64,000 nucleotides of DNA from Pollutibacter soli (GTDB lineage Bacteria > Bacteroidota > Bacteroidia > Chitinophagales > Chitinophagaceae): NCBI GenBank assembly GCA_029269725.1, contig JARJHS010000002.1, positions 186,001 to 250,000 on the forward strand, read 5' to 3'. The translations under genes were made by a program, and so were the position numbers. Position 1 is the stretch's first letter; the number at the start of each line of letters is the position of its first letter. Below are positions 10,190 to 19,689 of the stretch, one piece after another. The notes below the pieces were generated by a model. That model saw only the letters and a program-made list of their open reading frames with translations. It made no database searches and was not told the origin of the DNA.

Positions 10190-11758
10190 ATGAAGATGAA
10201 AGCCGGATCAAGAGCTGCAATATTTAAAAATGCATTTCGTATTGTTTTTATAATCTCAGGGTTGCTGTTTTTATATGCCCGCATTTTCGCTCAGGAAAAC
10301 ACCTCGGGATCGGTTGTCGCCCGTGACGGAGCACGTATGTTTATCGCCACCGCAGGTGAGAAAGTTTTCAGTGACACCGGATTTTATTTTAATTCAATCC
10401 CGGTATTTCTGAACGGCAGCAATTTCATTGCCGGTTCTTTCTATAAAGGCTCAAAAATTGAAGCAGCAGCAGCGGGTAAAATTTATGCCATAACTCCTGC
10501 TTCTGGCAGTCCGTTTTCGCAGGAAGCGAGATTGCAGCAGGAAGGTTTCAGCAAACGGAGTGAAAGTATTGATGGTTTATTCAAAGAGTTTGATGGCCAG
10601 TTGGTCCTATTGGAAAAAACACTGACCGATGCAGATCTCGCAGAACCACCTGCAGCCTATGGCAGCTGGGTTATTTTTTTCTTTTCCGGGTACCATCTCC
10701 CTTCCATACATGAACCGGCAAAAGTAATCTGGAATCCAGGCAAAGAGTATCTGCCACAAACCAGACTCTGGCAAGGTTGCCCCACAATAGCAAAAACAGG
10801 TAAGCGGTATTGGTTTGGATGGTTTACCGGTGGAACAAAGGAACCCGATAAAGGAAACTACGCAGTGATCAGTTACTCTGGTGAGCCGGGAAAAACATTG
10901 ACCGATCCGGCATTGATCGTCACTCACCCGAATGAGAAAGTGCGTGTGATGGACACGCAATTGTGGACCGATCCGTCCGGGAAACTCTGGTTGATGTGGA
11001 CACAGAACACCGGGATAAATGGATTTGATGGACTCTGGGGAACATGGGCATCTGTTTGTGATAACCCCGAAGCGGCTGTTCCGGAATTCAGTAAGCCCAG
11101 GCGGCTCTGCGATGGACTAACGCGCAATAAACCAGTGGTGCTGTCCACCGGGGAATGGTTGTTACCATCCTACACCTGGGTGGACCGCCGGAGCACAGTG
11201 TATATTTCCGGCGATCAGGGTAGGACATGGACTTTACAGGGTGGACCCTACAATAACAACATTACTTTTTATGAGCATATGCTCACAGAGAAAAAAGATG
11301 GTACCGTTTGGATGATGCAACGAAGTATCAAGGAAAGTTTTTCCACTGACAAAGGCAAAACCTGGACTGAATTAAAGGAACGTGCAGACTTCCCCTCTCC
11401 TTCTTCCAGATTATATTTCGGAAGACTGAAGTCGGGAGCACTCATACTGATCTACAATCGCGATGAAGAAAGAAAAGACCGGAAAAATATGACCGTTGCC
11501 TTGTCGCAGGATGACGGAAAAACATGGCCGTATTCTCTGCTGCTGGATGAACGTTCCGGAATTTCTTACCCTGATCTGGTTCAGGATGATAAAGGAAGAA
11601 TATTATTGGTATACGACAGGTCAAGAACAGGTGAAAAAGAAATTCTGATGGCTAGATTTTCTGAAAAAGAAGTACGAAAAGGAAAGATTTTTCTGAAAGA
11701 TTCAGGATCAAAGATATTGTTATCACGACCGGAGATTGTCAATACTGTTTCTAAATGA
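10190..11758 (+). CDS. Exo-sialidase-like BNR-repeat hydrolase, exported
   Basis: I favour the ATG at 10190 (522 residues) over an upstream in-frame TTG at 10178. The N-terminus is a signal peptide (hydrophobic IVFIISGLLFLYARIFAQ). A ~170-residue N-terminal region of unknown fold follows, then a six-bladed propeller with at least three Asp-box repeats: SGDQGRTWT, STDKGKTWT and SQDDGKTWP. Asp-boxes are typical of sialidases (GH33) and related glycosidases. The classical FRIP arginine motif is not obvious, so the true substrate may be another acidic sugar. It lies 29 bases after SusD and probably acts in the periplasm on glycan brought in by SusC/SusD. Confidence 0.82.
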   Translation: MKMKAGSRAAIFKNAFRIVFIISGLLFLYARIFAQENTSGSVVARDGARMFIATAGEKVFSDTGFYFNSIPVFLNGSNFIAGSFYKGSKIEAAAAGKIYAITPASGSPFSQEARLQQEGFSKRSESIDGLFKEFDGQLVLLEKTLTDADLAEPPAAYGSWVIFFFSGYHLPSIHEPAKVIWNPGKEYLPQTRLWQGCPTIAKTGKRYWFGWFTGGTKEPDKGNYAVISYSGEPGKTLTDPALIVTHPNEKVRVMDTQLWTDPSGKLWLMWTQNTGINGFDGLWGTWASVCDNPEAAVPEFSKPRRLCDGLTRNKPVVLSTGEWLLPSYTWVDRRSTVYISGDQGRTWTLQGGPYNNNITFYEHMLTEKKDGTVWMMQRSIKESFSTDKGKTWTELKERADFPSPSSRLYFGRLKSGALILIYNRDEERKDRKNMTVALSQDDGKTWPYSLLLDERSGISYPDLVQDDKGRILLVYDRSRTGEKEILMARFSEKEVRKGKIFLKDSGSKILLSRPEIVNTVSK

Positions 11759-11803
11759 ATAACCGGAAAGATGATGTGATCTGTCCCGGAGTAAAAAATC
11801 TGT

Positions 11804-12967
11804 ATGTCTAAAAATCGGTTGTTCCTATCCGTTACAGTATTTTTACTGATATCAATGATTATAGCAGGTCTGTCTGGCAGATTTGCCGATTCAGGACTAT
11901 TGATAATTGGATTCTTTATCAGTCTTGCTCTGTTTTTTTCAACCAGGGATTCGCTGCGGAGTTACATCTATACTATTTCCATTTTTGCGTCCGTAAGTGC
12001 AGCCATGTTTTACCCGGGATTATTTGTACGATGGGGAAATTTTAATGTGGCTTTGCTGATTACACCATTGATTCAACTCATCATGTTCGGGATGGGTACT
12101 TCAATGAGTCTCGGAGATTTTGGCGGCGTCATAAAAAATCCAAAGGGAGTGCTTGTAGGAGTGGTGAGTCATTTTATCATTATGCCCCTGCTGGGTTTTC
12201 TGCTTGCCAAATCAAGCGGACTTGAAGCGGAGATCGCTGCAGGTATCATTCTTCTCGGATGTTCACCCAACGGAATGGCTTCAAATGTAATTTCCTACCT
12301 GGCCAAAGCAAACCTGGCACTCTCTGTAACGATTACCGCAGTGTCGACCATGCTCGCACCTTTCCTGACACCACTCTTAATGAAATGGCTTGCGAATTCA
12401 TTTATCGAGATCAATATGTTGCACATGATGTGGGACATTTCGAAAATGGTGATTTTACCCATTGCTGCAGGATTGTTATTCAATCATTTTTTAAGGGGGA
12501 AAGTCAGATGGCTGGATAAGGCTATGCCTCTTGTATCCATGGCCGGAGTTGCATTTTCAATCGTTGTAATAGTAGCGGCCGGTCGCGATAGTTTACTAAC
12601 GATCGGCCCACTATTGTTAGGCCTCCTGGTCATTCATAATCTCGCTGGATATTTTCTGGGCTATTCGTTTGCACGTTTTTTTAGGATGTCGGAGCGCGAC
12701 TGCCGGACAGTGGCCATTGAGGTGGGAATGCAGAATGCCGGGCTGGCTACAGGTATAGCAAAGGAAATGGGAAAACTGGCAACTACCGGGCTGGCTCCTG
12801 CTATATTCGGATCGCTTATGAATATCACTGGTTCTGTACTTGCCTCCTGGTGGCATAAACGCGAACCATTAGAAAATCCCGAAGTACCCATTCTGCAGCC
12901 TGAGGAAAAGAACCTGCAGCAATCTACCCTGCTTACCGCGAACACCAAAAACACTTCTGATGTTTGA
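11804..12967 (+). CDS. Bile acid:sodium symporter (BASS) family transporter
   Basis: The 387-residue protein has about ten hydrophobic segments and the family patterns IMFGMGTSMSLGDF, LGCSPNGMASNVIS and VGMQNAGLATGIA, which form the sodium and substrate sites. BASS proteins bring organic anions across the inner membrane with sodium. Known substrates include bile acids, pantothenate, pyruvate and other 2-oxo or hydroxy acids. Here it follows a periplasmic glycosidase by 45 bases and precedes a kinase and an aldolase. The likely job is uptake of an acidic sugar or sugar-derived acid (inference). Its last codons overlap the next gene by 8 bases. Confidence 0.92.
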   Translation: MSKNRLFLSVTVFLLISMIIAGLSGRFADSGLLIIGFFISLALFFSTRDSLRSYIYTISIFASVSAAMFYPGLFVRWGNFNVALLITPLIQLIMFGMGTSMSLGDFGGVIKNPKGVLVGVVSHFIIMPLLGFLLAKSSGLEAEIAAGIILLGCSPNGMASNVISYLAKANLALSVTITAVSTMLAPFLTPLLMKWLANSFIEINMLHMMWDISKMVILPIAAGLLFNHFLRGKVRWLDKAMPLVSMAGVAFSIVVIVAAGRDSLLTIGPLLLGLLVIHNLAGYFLGYSFARFFRMSERDCRTVAIEVGMQNAGLATGIAKEMGKLATTGLAPAIFGSLMNITGSVLASWWHKREPLENPEVPILQPEEKNLQQSTLLTANTKNTSDV

Positions 12968-16710: not shown

Positions 16711-16742
16711 TTGGCAGCATCAAAAAATTGTTTACATCTTTG
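16711..16742 (+). promoter_or_regulatory. Bacteroidota-type promoter for the 30-codon gene
   Basis: TTGG at 16711-16714 and CATCTTTG at 16735-16742 are 20 bases apart and resemble TTTG / TAnnTTTG. The -7 box has one mismatch. The box ends 18 bases before the ATG at 16761, giving a short leader. Confidence 0.55.
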
Positions 16743-16760
16743 CACTCACAAAATAAAAAA

Positions 16761-16853
16761 ATGCAACGCACGCAGATACATATTAAACCGGTAAATCGCT
16801 TTGGTCTGAACACAGGCTATTGCAATTGCGGGGCATTTAATTTATCAGAATAA
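16761..16853 (+). CDS. Putative 30-residue leader or regulatory peptide
   Basis: An ATG at 16761 opens 30 codons ending in TAA. The peptide contains HIKPVNRFGL in the middle and TGYCNCGAFN near the end (two Cys). It sits between a credible promoter and a strong intrinsic terminator at 16882-16908, so the whole transcript would be only about 160 bases. That is the architecture of an attenuator leader peptide or a stand-alone small protein, but no controlled gene directly follows. I do not recognise the peptide, and it may instead be a chance frame inside a small RNA. Confidence 0.4.
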   Translation: MQRTQIHIKPVNRFGLNTGYCNCGAFNLSE

Positions 16854-16881
16854 GTAAAAAACGAATTCGATACAATGCAGG

Positions 16882-16908
16882 CCCCGCAAGAGATTGCGGG
16901 GTTTTTTA
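16882..16908 (+). terminator. Intrinsic terminator 1 of the small-peptide pair
   Basis: CCCCGC (16882-16887) pairs with GCGGGG (16896-16901) across an 8-base loop, followed directly by a T-rich tail. Confidence 0.88.
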
Positions 16909-16913
16909 TTTAT

Positions 16914-16943
16914 GTTAAACGTACAACGTTTAACGTAGAACGC
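16914..16943. repeat. Heptamer array, ACGT word
   Basis: ACGT recurs every seven bases with three variable bases between (aca, tta, aga), directly after terminator 1. Confidence 0.75.
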
Positions 16944-17026
16944 GGGAGCCTGAGCAGGCAAAGAATCGTAATTAAATGAAATAATTTTGAAACGGAATTT
17001 GATGATAAAAGAAAACGAAAGGAAAT

Positions 17027-17140
17027 ATGCGATTTAAAATAGAAGTAATGAATTGGGATTCATGTGCTGGCAATAAAACTATGCCCGGCGCTGAACACTA
17101 TCTAAATAGTCATCAGCGACCTGATTACGTGTACATATAG
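17027..17140 (+). CDS. Putative 37-residue peptide followed by a terminator
   Basis: An ATG at 17027, preceded by the purine-rich AAAGGAAAT, opens 37 codons ending in TAG. The peptide holds MNWDSCAGNKTMPGAEHYL in its centre. A perfect 11-bp-stem terminator follows 20 bases later. Together with the 30-codon unit upstream it forms two consecutive peptide-plus-terminator units immediately before a tRNA cluster. I do not recognise the product. It could also be part of a non-coding RNA. Confidence 0.4.
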   Translation: MRFKIEVMNWDSCAGNKTMPGAEHYLNSHQRPDYVYI

Positions 17141-17160
17141 GCGAAATCTATTGTGTATGT

Positions 17161-17192
17161 AAACCCGGTCGCAGTAAACGACCGGGTTTTTT
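17161..17192 (+). terminator. Intrinsic terminator 2 of the small-peptide pair
   Basis: AAACCCGGTCG (17161-17171) pairs perfectly with CGACCGGGTTT (17179-17189), loop CAGTAAA, with a T-tract. Confidence 0.92.
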
Positions 17193-17195
17193 ATT

Positions 17196-17225
17196 GAGAA
17201 ACAGAAAATAGAAACAGGAAAAAAA
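17196..17225. repeat. Heptamer array, AGAAACA-like
   Basis: Units GAGAAAC, AGAAAAT, AGAAACA, GGAAAAA run in 7-base phase between terminator 2 and the first tRNA. Confidence 0.55.
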
Positions 17226-17298
17226 TGGCTTGTAGTTAAAAGGATGAGAATACTTCACTACGAATGAAGAGATACAGGTTCGAATCCTGTCATGCCAA
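17226..17298 (+). tRNA. tRNA-Arg(ACG)-like, divergent
   Basis: The acceptor TGGCTTG/CATGCCA has one mismatch. The anticodon stem CTTCA/TGAAG encloses loop CTACGAA with anticodon ACG. The T-arm ACAGG-TTCGAAT-CCTGT is perfect. The D-arm is weak (GTTA/GAAT), though its loop keeps GG. There is no encoded CCA. The sequence is unlike a housekeeping tRNA and may be a phage-type or decaying copy. Confidence 0.6.
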
Positions 17299-17350
17299 CC
17301 GATTTTTTTAAACGTCCCTGGAAAACCTATGAAAAATTAAGAAGCTCAAC

Positions 17351-17424
17351 TGGCTCGTAGCTCAACAGGTAGATGTTCCCGGCTTTTAACCGGGAGGTTG
17401 TGAGTTCGAATCTCACCGGGCCAA
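17351..17424 (+). tRNA. tRNA-Lys(TTT), divergent D-arm
   Basis: The acceptor TGGCTCG/CGGGCCA is fully paired with one wobble. The anticodon stem CCCGG/CCGGG encloses CTTTTAA (anticodon TTT). The T-arm GTGAG-TTCGAAT-CTCAC is perfect. The D-arm keeps TAGCTCAACAGGTAG, but its 3' strand pairs poorly. It is followed after three bases by the Asn tRNA. Confidence 0.72.
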
Positions 17425-17427
17425 CAA

Positions 17428-17499
17428 GGATGAATAGCTCAATGGCAGAGCAGCGGTTTGTTAAGCCGCCGGTTGAAAGTTCGAGTCTTTTTTCATCCG
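17428..17499 (+). tRNA. tRNA-Asn(GTT)
   Basis: A complete cloverleaf: acceptor GGATGAA/TTCATCC, D-arm GCTC-AATGGCA-GAGC, anticodon stem GCGGT/GCCGC with loop TTGTTAA (anticodon GTT), and T-loop TTCGAGT on a weak A/T-rich stem (GAAAG/CTTTT). It is the best-folded of the four, though the T-stem is unusually weak. Confidence 0.82.
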
Positions 17500-17513
17500 C
17501 ATTTATTAAACAG

Positions 17514-17586
17514 GGTGCTTTGGCAGAGTTGGTCTATGCACCGGATTGAAAATCTGGCAAAGAAGGTTCGATTCCCTCGGGCGCCA
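17514..17586 (+). tRNA. tRNA-Phe(GAA)
   Basis: The acceptor GGTGCTT/GGGCGCC pairs throughout using three G-U pairs. The anticodon stem CCGGA/TCTGG encloses TTGAAAA (anticodon GAA). The T-arm GAAGG-TTCGATT-CCCTC has one A-C mismatch. The D-stem is three pairs (GCA/TGC). The wobble-rich acceptor is atypical for a housekeeping gene. Confidence 0.72.
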
Positions 17587-17591
17587 CTGGA

Positions 17592-17627
17592 AGAGAAAGC
17601 AGAATACAGAAACAGAAAACTGATACA
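17592..17627. repeat. Heptamer array, AGAATAC/AGAAACA
   Basis: Units AGAAAGC, AGAATAC, AGAAACA, GAAAACT fill the space between tRNA-Phe and the YkuK-like gene and overlap its ribosome-binding region. Confidence 0.6.
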
Positions 17628-18116
17628 ATGGAACATTTAAAACTCCAATGGCGGAAATTAAATGGAGAGAAAATTCTCATTCCGATAGCAGATGAAGTAG
17701 TAAACATACTGGCAAAGGAGCGCGAATCCGGTCACGAATTGAAGGTATGTATCGGTACTGACAGCCAGGTGAAAGGAACTGTAACTGAATTTGCCACTGT
17801 TATTGTTTTCATCCGGAAAGGTAAAGGAGGATTCATGTACATATGCAATGAAGTTTCTCATCAGAAGATGAGTATCAAACAGCGGATGCTCGTAGAAGCA
17901 GCAAAAAGCGTCGATGTGGCTTTTGCGCTTTGCAATATTTTTTCACGCTTCAGTGTGAGTATGGAAGTACATGCAGACATCAATACCAATCCCGGTTTCA
18001 AAAGCAATGATGCACTGAAAGAGGCGATGGGATATATCGTCGGGATGGGATTTGATTTCAAGGCAAAACCCCAGGCGTTTGCCAGCTCAAGCTGCGCTAA
18101 CAAAGTAGTGCAATGA
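17628..18116 (+). CDS. YkuK/DUF458-type ribonuclease H-like protein
   Basis: The 162-residue protein carries the RNase H-like core of the YkuK family: VCIGTDSQVKG (first acidic residue), EVHADINTNPGFKSNDALKEA (second acidic strand and helix) and the C-terminal KPQAFASSSCANKVVQ. The fold is shared with nucleases and transposases, but catalysis has not been shown for this family as far as I know. The ATG at 17628 follows the tRNA cluster by ~40 bases and the AAA+ ATPase gene follows after 98 bases. The context suggests a role with RNA or tRNA (inference). Confidence 0.85.
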   Translation: MEHLKLQWRKLNGEKILIPIADEVVNILAKERESGHELKVCIGTDSQVKGTVTEFATVIVFIRKGKGGFMYICNEVSHQKMSIKQRMLVEAAKSVDVAFALCNIFSRFSVSMEVHADINTNPGFKSNDALKEAMGYIVGMGFDFKAKPQAFASSSCANKVVQ

Positions 18117-18150
18117 TGAGGCAAGAGGCAAAAGGTACTGGCGGCTATTG

Positions 18151-18200
18151 CGAACAGCGAACAGTGGACAACGATGAACAATGAACGAACAACGAACAAT
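18151..18200. repeat. Heptamer array, CGAACAG/CGAACAA
   Basis: Seven units in strict 7-base phase (CGAACAG, CGAACAG, TGGACAA, CGATGAA, CAATGAA, CGAACAA, CGAACAA) fill the gap before the ATPase gene. Confidence 0.8.
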
Positions 18201-18214
18201 TAAAAAATCAACTT

Positions 18215-19375
18215 ATGTCGTTATATATTTTTTTAATCATCATCATGATTCGGATTCTGATCGTGATCTTCCCTTCACTCTTCTCAGAACTGAGAGGTCT
18301 GTTGAGGACACTTATCAGTAAAAGATCGTTACCGGTTTTCGAGAATCACTATATCGATGCTAAATCACTATACAGGTATAGGTTCGGGTCTATTCCGAAC
18401 ATCAGCATCATTCAAGGTGTTGATGTCGGAAAGGTTTTCGAATATGTAACAGGTATACATAGCGGAATGGTTTCAAGGATATATCAGTCCTGCGAGTACA
18501 ATTTTGAGGCAGGTAAGCAGGAGTTCGACAAAACCTTATTCGTAATGAAGAATAAAGTGATTATCGAACTGGCTTACAGGTATGCACGAATTCTTTACCA
18601 GTCTGAAGCTTTTCAACACGCCTCAGAATTGCTTGCTGCTTTTAGTGAATTCAAAGTGCTGGAGAAACAGGAGGATTTCGAGATCAATATCATCACATAC
18701 TCTAATTCGGGACTTGATCTGAAACGGCTGGATATAAAACCTGCGAATCTCGATCTGCATTTGTTTTACAATGATGATTTTATTGAAGTGGATAAACTGA
18801 TTAAAAGCCGGTTGAATATGCAGAACGATAAAGGGATTGTTTTGCTTCATGGACTACCAGGTACAGGAAAAACATCTTACCTGCGTCACCTGGTTGGTGA
18901 ACTTAAAAAGAAAGTACTTTTTGTTTCACCTTCTGTAGCAGGCAACCTGATGAATCCTGAATTTGTGGATCTGCTGATCGAAAATCCCAATTCAGTTTTG
19001 GTGATTGAGGATGCAGAAAATATCCTCATGAACAGAAAATATAACAGCGATTCTTCAGTATCCAACCTGCTGAACCTGAGTGATGGTTTGTTGAGTGATT
19101 GTGTGAGCGTACAGGTGATCTGCACTTTCAATAGTGATCTCAACCTGATTGACGATGCGTTGATGCGAAAAGGTCGGCTTATCGCCAGGTATGAATTCGG
19201 AAAATTGAGTGTCGAAAAATCACAGCGGCTCTCAGATCATCTTGGATTCGAAACAGTAATTAAAATGCCAATGACTGTTGCTGAAATAACCAATCAACAT
19301 GATATGCAGTTTGAAATAAAAAGGATTGAAATAATCGGTTTCAAACGTCATTCTGATTTGGCACAGCGCTGTTAG
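18215..19375 (+). CDS. AAA+ family ATPase
   Basis: The 386-residue protein starts with a hydrophobic segment (IFLIIIMIRILIVIFPSLF) that could anchor it in the membrane. A ~180-residue N-terminal region of unknown fold follows, then an AAA+ domain: Walker A HGLPGTGKTSY (~residue 210), Walker B NSVLVIEDAEN, a sensor-like ICTFNSDLNLID and an arginine-finger-like ALMRKGRLIARYEF. The ATPase core resembles BCS1/FtsH-like AAA modules. It lies 98 bases after the YkuK-like gene on the same strand and is followed by tRNA-like remnants. Its job is unknown; remodelling of an RNA-protein or membrane substrate is possible. Confidence 0.85.
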   Translation: MSLYIFLIIIMIRILIVIFPSLFSELRGLLRTLISKRSLPVFENHYIDAKSLYRYRFGSIPNISIIQGVDVGKVFEYVTGIHSGMVSRIYQSCEYNFEAGKQEFDKTLFVMKNKVIIELAYRYARILYQSEAFQHASELLAAFSEFKVLEKQEDFEINIITYSNSGLDLKRLDIKPANLDLHLFYNDDFIEVDKLIKSRLNMQNDKGIVLLHGLPGTGKTSYLRHLVGELKKKVLFVSPSVAGNLMNPEFVDLLIENPNSVLVIEDAENILMNRKYNSDSSVSNLLNLSDGLLSDCVSVQVICTFNSDLNLIDDALMRKGRLIARYEFGKLSVEKSQRLSDHLGFETVIKMPMTVAEITNQHDMQFEIKRIEIIGFKRHSDLAQRC

Positions 19376-19472
19376 TGCTACGGGACCTGACATGTCGTAT
19401 AAAAGCCTGCCCACCGGCAAGATGGTATATGACTATTGAATACAGACCAGGTCTATGCGTGATTTCATGACC

Positions 19473-19561
19473 GTGCGGAAGCAGTAGCTGGCCGTATGCT
19501 TTTGCAGCGATAGTTTATATCATTACTCTGTAAGTCAGAGGTCCGACTCCTCTTCCGCTCT
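19473..19561 (+). tRNA. tRNA-like sequence, probably degenerate (class II size)
   Basis: GTGCGGA and TCCGCTC at the ends pair in six of seven positions. The T-arm AGAGG-TCCGACT-CCTCT is perfect. A CTGTAAG stretch resembles a Tyr(GTA) anticodon loop, but its flanking stem does not pair. The ~89-base length would fit a class II tRNA. I read it as a pseudo-tRNA. Confidence 0.35.
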
Positions 19562-19563
19562 TA

Positions 19564-19608
19564 CGGGGATAACTCAACGGTAGAGCAACAGGATGCGCAG
19601 GTTCCCCG
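19564..19608 (+). pseudogene. Truncated tRNA-like fragment
   Basis: CGGGGA (19564-19569) and TCCCCG (19603-19608) pair around a D-arm-like AACTCAACGGTAGAGC. There is no anticodon or T-arm, so it looks like an internally deleted tRNA three bases after the preceding tRNA-like element. Confidence 0.3.
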
Positions 19609-19656
19609 CCCGGCTGGTGCATTATTGGAACAGTTGAAGGGAATTTTTGGTTCGTC

Positions 19657-19689
19657 AAACCTGTGAGGTCGTGAAGACCTTACAGGTTT
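19657..19689. repeat. 33-bp palindromic hairpin (AAACCTGTGAGGTC type)
   Basis: Fourteen base pairs (one G-T) close a GTGAA loop. The element lies two bases beyond the stop codon of the minus-strand reductase gene. There is no T-tract on either side, so it resembles a dispersed REP-like element more than a terminator, though it may stabilise the mRNA end. Confidence 0.8.

Follow-up and report, generated by a model that had tools for sequence, protein, structure and literature searches.

Tandem attenuators with near-complete amino acid leaders upstream of a spare tRNA array and RNA-care genes in Pollutibacter soli: a candidate sensor of tRNA loss

We analyzed a 64,000-nucleotide stretch of the 6.1-Mb genome of Pollutibacter soli (contig C12 of genome G000, positions 186001-250000; hereafter the window), in which a compact island lies between an aldo/keto reductase gene on one side and a ketopantoate-reductase-like gene on the other. 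All parts of the island are on the + strand and follow one another as a promoter-like element, a leader peptide with its terminator, a second leader peptide with its terminator, tRNA genes for Arg, Lys, Asn and Phe, a YkuK gene, a gene for an AAA+ ATPase, a tRNA-like RNA and a closing hairpin that is a possible operon end (Table 1). Every item of the parts list given by the first-pass annotation of this DNA (micro-units, four tRNAs, YkuK, AAA+ and palindrome) could be located. As read from the sequence, the two micro-units are tandem transcription attenuators, each composed of a short open reading frame (ORF), a terminator, and an antiterminator strand embedded in the last codons of the ORF. 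The island is probably an inducible operon of spare tRNAs and RNA-care genes, controlled by two such attenuators whose pan-codon leaders would sense the loss of any charged tRNA.

Table 1. Features of the island and their positions in the window
Feature	Position	Strand	Basis
Promoter-like element TTG...TTTGC, Bacteroidota type	16711..16743	+	TTTGC position relative to leader ATGs
Micro-unit 1	16761-16907	+	
Leader peptide 1, 30 codons, 18/20 amino acids	16761..16853	+	
Antiterminator strand 1 (TTGCGGGGC), within leader 1	16826..16834	+	Complementarity, covariation with terminator 5' arm, fold
Intrinsic terminator 1	16882..16907	+	Complementarity scan, fold, covariation
Micro-unit 2	17027-17192	+	
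Leader peptide 2, 37 codons, 20/20 amino acids, all inside the first 30 codons	17027..17140	+	
Antiterminator strand 2 (GCGACC), within leader 2	17116..17121	+	Complementarity; covariation in relatives
Intrinsic terminator 2	17164..17192	+	Complementarity scan, fold
tRNA-Arg(acg), divergent second copy	17226..17300	+	ARAGORN, Rfam
tRNA-Lys(ttt), divergent second copy	17351..17425	+	ARAGORN, Rfam
tRNA-Asn(gtt), divergent second copy	17428..17500	+	ARAGORN, Rfam
tRNA-Phe(gaa), divergent second copy	17514..17587	+	ARAGORN, Rfam
Second YkuK paralogue of the genome (RNase H-like, PF04308)	17628..18116	+	Pfam
AAA+ ATPase, core nearest Bcs1/YjoB	18215..19375	+	Pfam, Foldseek
Permuted tRNA-like RNA, related to bacterial Y RNAs	19503..19618	+	Rfam YrlA, R1 model, covariation
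Closing hairpin, near-perfect 14-bp palindrome	19657..19689	+	Read from sequence

In both micro-units, the short ORF stands directly before an intrinsic terminator and upstream of the genes that would be regulated. In unit 1, the antiterminator strand is made up of codons close to the ORF end, around TGC GGG GCA, and is the complement of the terminator's 5' arm (from 16882). Since this arm may pair forward to give the terminator or backward to give the antiterminator, the two structures are mutually exclusive. When the 84-nucleotide (nt) stretch of unit 1 was folded alone, the antiterminator won (-26.8 kcal/mol, with 0/200 shuffles equally stable), and in unit 2 folded alone the terminator was favoured, with a helper hairpin between the two strands. 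Competition for the terminator's 5' arm is thus indicated by covariation among relatives, described below, and by the fold in unit 1, unit 2 preferring the terminator.

For the relatives, a strict-geometry detector was run over 116 sources, some of which overlap, with a combined length of 1.84 Mb. Taking both strands, it reported 136 units, 120 of them unique; it reported none on the reversed sequence and none on two Markov shuffles. One detection inside a 454-codon frame (L197) and three second ORFs of the same terminator were left out, so that 116 leaders from the window and its relatives were kept (75 first and 41 second leaders). The leaders of L081 and L178 were trimmed to the start codon used by their relatives, and two L151 leaders, being too divergent, are excluded from alignment A7. 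A TTTGC motif, which we take to be the Bacteroidota -7 box, was present in the 60 nt that precede the ATG in 66 of the 75 first leaders and in 2 of the 41 second leaders, which places the two units in series on one transcript; the first-pass suggestion that the micro-units are separate transcripts was not borne out.

Covariation was assessed on sequence-only MAFFT alignments, with 500 shuffles as control. Changes on both sides were seen for 7/9 pairs of antiterminator 1 and 4/7 pairs of antiterminator 2, each level being reached by 0/500 shuffles, and for 8/9 pairs of terminator 1 (0/500 shuffles on all five measures). Two helices that extend antiterminator 1 have 65.7% of their cells paired, which no shuffle reached. 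Sliding antiterminator 2 by one column gave seven doubly changed cells versus five in register, but pairing fell to 29% from 84%. An upstream complementary strand was found for 75 of 129 terminators with common arms and for 31 of 159 others, sorted by arm sequence alone, a contrast that is weakened because both groups are mixed. Attenuators were also detected in two further families of the order (L150 and L151). At L151 (family f8, 11345-11852), there are two of them with leaders of 44 and 52 amino acids, each containing 20/20 amino acids, and with quite different terminator sequences.

The leaders are exceptionally broad in amino acid content. First leaders (n=75) contain on average 17.84 different amino acids in 29.8 codons, compared with 14.19 in length-matched protein windows, 14.55 in other frames (28.0 residues versus 29.8) and 14.66 in shuffled DNA. 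Second leaders (n=41) contain 18.88 in 49.7 codons, and the corresponding controls gave 16.61, 17.06 (46.1 residues versus 49.7) and 17.01. The complete set of 20 amino acids in 30 residues, as in leader 2 of the window, was observed in 15/200,000 random protein windows and 288/200,000 equal-frequency draws. As the leaders are related to each other, we also permuted letters within alignment columns, which keeps the homology (2000 runs). The first leaders still exceeded this control (17.84 observed versus 16.37, z 11.0, 0/2000), including those below 50% identity (z 8.3, 0/2000), and so did the second leaders (z 4.4, 0/2000; below 50% identity z 3.2, 1/2000), while 75 windows of the YkuK, AAA+ and RtcB alignments from the same loci gave z values from -4.7 to 1.8. 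Such an excess means that single sequences retain a near-complete set even as the positions of the letters shift. Thirty loci have both leaders, and the union of the two covers 20 amino acids in 22 of these loci, 19 in six and 18 in two. Moreover, the leaders avoid repeats, and a run of codons for an amino acid of a regulated pathway, as in leaders of the trp type, was not found. These comparisons indicate that the amino acid make-up of the leaders is selected. A near-complete alphabet is what a sensor of any missing charged tRNA would need, and we know of no other reason for it.

Genes under putative attenuator control were counted as same-strand downstream features with chained gaps of 1.5 kb in 86 distinct attenuated regions. 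YkuK was present in 61 regions, tRNA genes in 58, AAA+ in 52, a Band_7 protein in 45, RtcB in 34, Ro60 in four and an R2K protein in one, with no recognised cargo in three; hence, 83 of the 86 regions lead into the same gene set. The counts for YkuK and AAA+ are biased, as most loci had been selected through one or the other; Band_7 and tRNAs were not selection criteria, and two of the regions (L306 and L313) came from the RtcB search. With the same reservation that loci were largely picked by YkuK or AAA+, a linkage check set beforehand did not refute the link of these two genes to each other and to tRNAs. The idea of one functional unit, put forward in the first-pass annotation, is therefore strengthened, as YkuK, AAA+ and tRNAs recur together downstream of attenuators in relatives. 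A search of 394 genomes with the attenuator motif alone, which is less affected by such bias, gave 30 matches in 27 genomes (none with the reversed pattern), 24 of which lead into the same genes. One of the rest meets a contig end (L203), one consists of leaders without recognised cargo (L193/L254), and four are not such leaders (L179, L192 and L204 without an attenuator, and L197 inside a long frame). L076 has the most complete uninterrupted set, with an attenuator, Ro60, tRNAs plus two Y-like RNAs, YkuK, AAA+ and RtcB. RtcB and Ro60, together with Band_7, in the cargo of relatives suggest a response to RNA or tRNA damage.

Several further arrangements were observed next to these attenuators. 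The Band_7/SPFH protein that recurs after attenuated arrays is 364-366 amino acids long (for example L255:3824-4924, L217:5483-6583 and L259:1637-2731). At L253:357-2938, an attenuator is followed by an R2K-clade ATP-grasp protein and then by AAA+, and at L254:5052-6544 two attenuators with leaders of 31 and 41 amino acids precede a low-molecular-weight phosphatase and genes that do not resemble the common cargo. Short ORFs after attenuators (L143:5666-6301, L313:1263-1700, L306 and L251:886-1407) resemble the N-terminal part of the AAA+ protein alone (approximately residues 31-155) and may represent a separate small protein of the system.

ARAGORN detected four tRNAs in the whole 64 kb, with which the Rfam tRNA model concurs (46-67 bits). 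A total of 46 Rfam tRNA matches were obtained in the window genome, from which 45 distinct tRNA sequences were read out. Each of the four array anticodons has another copy elsewhere in the genome, and array and housekeeping copies are identical at 46-53 of 74-75 positions, in agreement with the first-pass description of these tRNAs as non-housekeeping. Across 55 arrays with at least two tRNAs, 1204 of 1264 pairwise orders match the majority (62% when shuffled). Such a common order points to one ancestral array, of which the window holds a reduced form; it supports the earlier proposal of a tRNA-supply module, and a chance gene cluster was rejected on the same ground. The commonest array tRNAs are those for Phe, Lys, Gln, Asn, His and Arg(acg), and ARAGORN called no tRNA-Thr in the 58 attenuated regions with tRNAs. 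The choice of targets by nucleases may underlie this bias. For colicins D and E5 and PrrC, the targets are Arg, Asn/His/Asp/Tyr and Lys tRNAs, which fit the commonest array tRNAs only loosely.

Downstream of the ATPase, the region 19503-19618 scores 21 bits with the Rfam YrlA model (RF02553), short of the gathering cut-off of 69 bits, and matches in relatives score 33-41 bits (up to 40.8). An alignment of 33 sequences showed two-sided changes at 15 of 17 pairs, supporting a permuted tRNA-like fold in which a T-arm, an acceptor-like stem and a D-arm stand in permuted order. The first-pass annotation had seen tRNA-like remnants here; what they hold is one structured RNA, and tRNA debris at 19380-19620 was rejected in view of this covariation. 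The stability of the isolated 265-nt 3' region is not unusual (z -0.74). R1, a model built from seven Y-like RNA examples, matched at 43 bits or more outside ARAGORN tRNAs in 45 of 66 YkuK-bearing sources, with no such free match in the other 21. R1 also matches T-arm/D-arm junctions of neighbouring tRNAs (the window junction 17368-17477 scores 36.8), and 8 of 64 matches of at least 40 bits, which overlapped ARAGORN tRNAs, were removed; among the 56 free matches, 40 begin 113-330 nt after YkuK or AAA+. All 10 TROVE (Ro60) genomes among 107 have an R1 match near TROVE, two of them having been used to build R1 and one scoring 41.4 bits. No match at E 0.01 was obtained on 29 other YkuK copies (L031-L060 minus L050, flanks of 1.5 kb; L099 is the L054 site taken again with longer flanks). 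We treat the window RNA as a relative of the Y RNAs and not as a certified member. Like YrlA, it has the T-arm before the D-arm in a permuted tRNA-like fold, and it adjoins Ro60 in relatives. Unlike YrlA, it lies below the Rfam cut-off, many YkuK-linked copies end in an additional second T-arm, and the RNA is present where Ro60 was not detected.

The YkuK protein matches PF04308 with an E value of 4.9e-36 (124 bits, cut-off 25), another YkuK of this genome is encoded at C12:825156, and YkuK was matched in 363 of 394 genomes of the family. D45, E113 and D117 are invariant in 15 aligned copies of both the array and the housekeeping paralogue and, judging from the family name, may form an RNase H-like site. 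Its structural model has a mean predicted local distance difference test (pLDDT) score of 77.9; the best fold match in PDB was SecB (E 1.1e-3), RNase H and EndoV reached approximately 0.05-0.1, none of these being confident, and no solved relative was found by sequence. The AAA+ protein (PF00004, E 8e-12; mean pLDDT 80.6) is nearest to AFG2 and Bcs1 by sequence, and Foldseek gave Bcs1 (E 3e-14) and Bacillus subtilis YjoB (E 1.4e-12), with whole-chain template modelling (TM) scores of only about 0.33-0.42. No Pfam match to the Bcs1-specific N-terminal domain was obtained at E 0.001, no NCBIfam match was obtained for either YkuK or AAA+ at E 0.001, and PADLOC gave a marginal match to AAA+ (E 0.001). 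The first-pass reading of an AAA+ ATPase is sound; its possible membrane anchor, suggested by a hydrophobic N-terminus that forms one helix (residues 3-35) in the model, is doubtful, as 10 of the 12 relatives in the alignment do not have this segment. Relatives of the ATPase from named species include those of Taibaiella lutea (51% identity) and Flavihumibacter petaseus (44%), whose lineages point to Chitinophagaceae as the most likely family. Two viral contigs also encode relatives of these proteins: one of 334 kb (L266) has a 43% identical AAA+ protein with a tRNA-Lys nearby, and one of 142 kb (L265) has a 37% identical YkuK. In the genus itself, the ATPase was not found in 3/3 sampled members and each of nine sampled members has at most one YkuK match, so the distribution of the island is patchy. 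As a guess, YkuK and AAA+ might act by trimming or remodelling damaged tRNAs or the tRNA-like RNA, the latter also being a target considered in the first-pass annotation.

Taken as attenuators, the two units would act as follows. With every charged tRNA available, the ribosome would trail RNA polymerase through the leader and cover the antiterminator strand, and the terminator would form. Lack of any one charged tRNA would make the ribosome stall before that strand, so that the antiterminator would form and transcription would go on. The ribosome would have to stall in the second leader too, so that the tandem would behave as an AND gate and the operon would otherwise be silent. Read-through would then supply the divergent spare tRNAs as replacements for those lost. 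Judging by the cargo of relatives, we infer that the natural trigger is damage to tRNA, such as that inflicted by anticodon nucleases from phages, competitors or toxin systems. In this more specific form, we lean slightly towards a cis-acting alarm that watches the whole tRNA pool, in which the tandem one-of-each leaders would release replacement tRNAs and RNA-repair genes upon anticodon-nuclease attack, and in which YkuK and the Y-like tRNA mimic would be new RNA-care parts.

A number of observations weigh against these proposals. First leaders often lack Trp (present in 25/57) or Asp (39/57). Antiterminator strand 2 of the window is just 6 nt long, and its unit prefers the terminator in isolation. 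Both antiterminator strands lie upstream of the stop codon, strand 1 ending approximately 16 nt before it, so that a ribosome parked at the stop may not cover them fully; this position differs from the textbook trp attenuator. Loci entered the covariation alignments only if a complementary strand of at least 6 nt was found, which favours pairing in general. For antiterminator 1, 82.4% of cells are paired versus 80.3% (7/500 shuffles reach it), its pair types were reached by 97/500 shuffles and its covariation score by 2/500, its score when slid by one column is 0.100 versus 0.126 in register, and the doubly changed pairs of its extension helices were reached by 159/500 shuffles. With respect to cargo, RtcB of the window genome is not in the window operon and sits elsewhere (G000:C32) without an attenuator, and no TROVE (Ro60) match was found in this genome. 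Outward from RtcB, an attenuator was detected within about 4 kb upstream in only 2 of 20 sampled loci (L306 and L313, both strands), so most RtcB copies are not under attenuator control. Finally, a missing tRNA and a missing amino acid would look alike to the sensor.

Among other explanations, the units could be general sensors of slowed translation, in which any ribosome trouble, such as that caused by ribosome-targeting drugs, leads to read-through and the amino acid make-up of the leader is irrelevant. There is precedent in the PA5471.1 leader of Pseudomonas aeruginosa armZ (PMC12057347) and in the Anabaena tRNA operon induced by translation-targeting antibiotics (PMC10272220). It is nevertheless an unlikely account of the present leaders, given that their make-up is selected (column-shuffle z 11 versus at most 1.8 in the 75 control windows). 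A related view, in which the same sensor serves as a general starvation switch and its natural signal is uncharged and not damaged tRNA, draws on the inability of such a sensor to distinguish the two. We consider it quite improbable, since tRNA genes, RtcB and Ro60 would not relieve starvation, and none of the 27 downstream proteins scanned with Pfam was for amino acid synthesis or uptake.

That the micro-ORFs encode working small proteins (toxin, antimicrobial or antitoxin) which merely precede terminators is very improbable: a weak motif is common to first leaders across relatives, but their mean pairwise identity is 0.32 while the composition is kept, the C-terminal codons track RNA pairing, and in 5 of 59 core-motif first leaders the pairing strand lies in another frame. 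A decaying phage-derived tRNA array beside unrelated genes, as the first-pass annotation had partly envisaged, would agree with jumbo phages that carry tRNA genes and RNA ligases (PMC7824862) and with the 334-kb viral contig, but viral contigs gave one weak relative each of YkuK and AAA+, and the common tRNA order, conserved attenuators, conserved tRNA-like RNA and recurring cargo leave this highly implausible as regards function, an ancient phage origin being possible.

The preferred reading, an operon under pan-codon attenuators, has counterparts among known systems. Ribosome-mediated attenuation is known from the trp, his and leu leaders, with which the present units share a leader ORF, a terminator and a competing antiterminator. 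They differ in that the leaders here span nearly all 20 amino acids and do not repeat one, that two units often stand in tandem, and that the cargo is tRNA and RNA-repair genes and not biosynthesis. The PA5471.1 leader of armZ/mexXY has a peptide and terminators proposed to sense impaired ribosomes and an RtcB-like regulated product, as ArmZ is called (PMC12057347); in the passages of that report considered here no all-amino-acid make-up is described, and its target is a drug-efflux regulator. The ermC leader senses global slowdown without amino acid specificity (PMC2965389). The Salmonella rsr-yrlBA-rtcBA operon, with RtcB, Ro60, Y RNAs and induction by tRNA damage, is activated by tRNA fragments, RtcR binding tRNA 5' fragments with a cyclic phosphate (PMC7790460); here, in contrast to RtcR, there is a predicted cis-acting attenuator with a tRNA array, YkuK and AAA+. 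The Anabaena trn operon is likewise a silent second tRNA set induced by translational stress, but it is controlled by the TrcR repressor, and the words 'leader', 'attenuation' and 'YkuK' are absent from the main text of the report (PMC10272220). In the literature covered, with preprints and most subscription journals outside its scope, neither an all-amino-acid leader nor a link between YkuK and tRNA arrays was found. What goes beyond earlier work is a leader in which the presence of each amino acid is selected.

A textbook attenuation leader tests one amino acid, and a leader that tests all of them follows a different sensing logic. If the proposal is true, a cell could detect the loss of tRNA in cis, with no need of a receptor for tRNA fragments. 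The proposal would further suggest what keeps a spare tRNA array silent and give YkuK a role. It would also offer a search handle for other anticodon-nuclease responses in phage-host and toxin conflicts.

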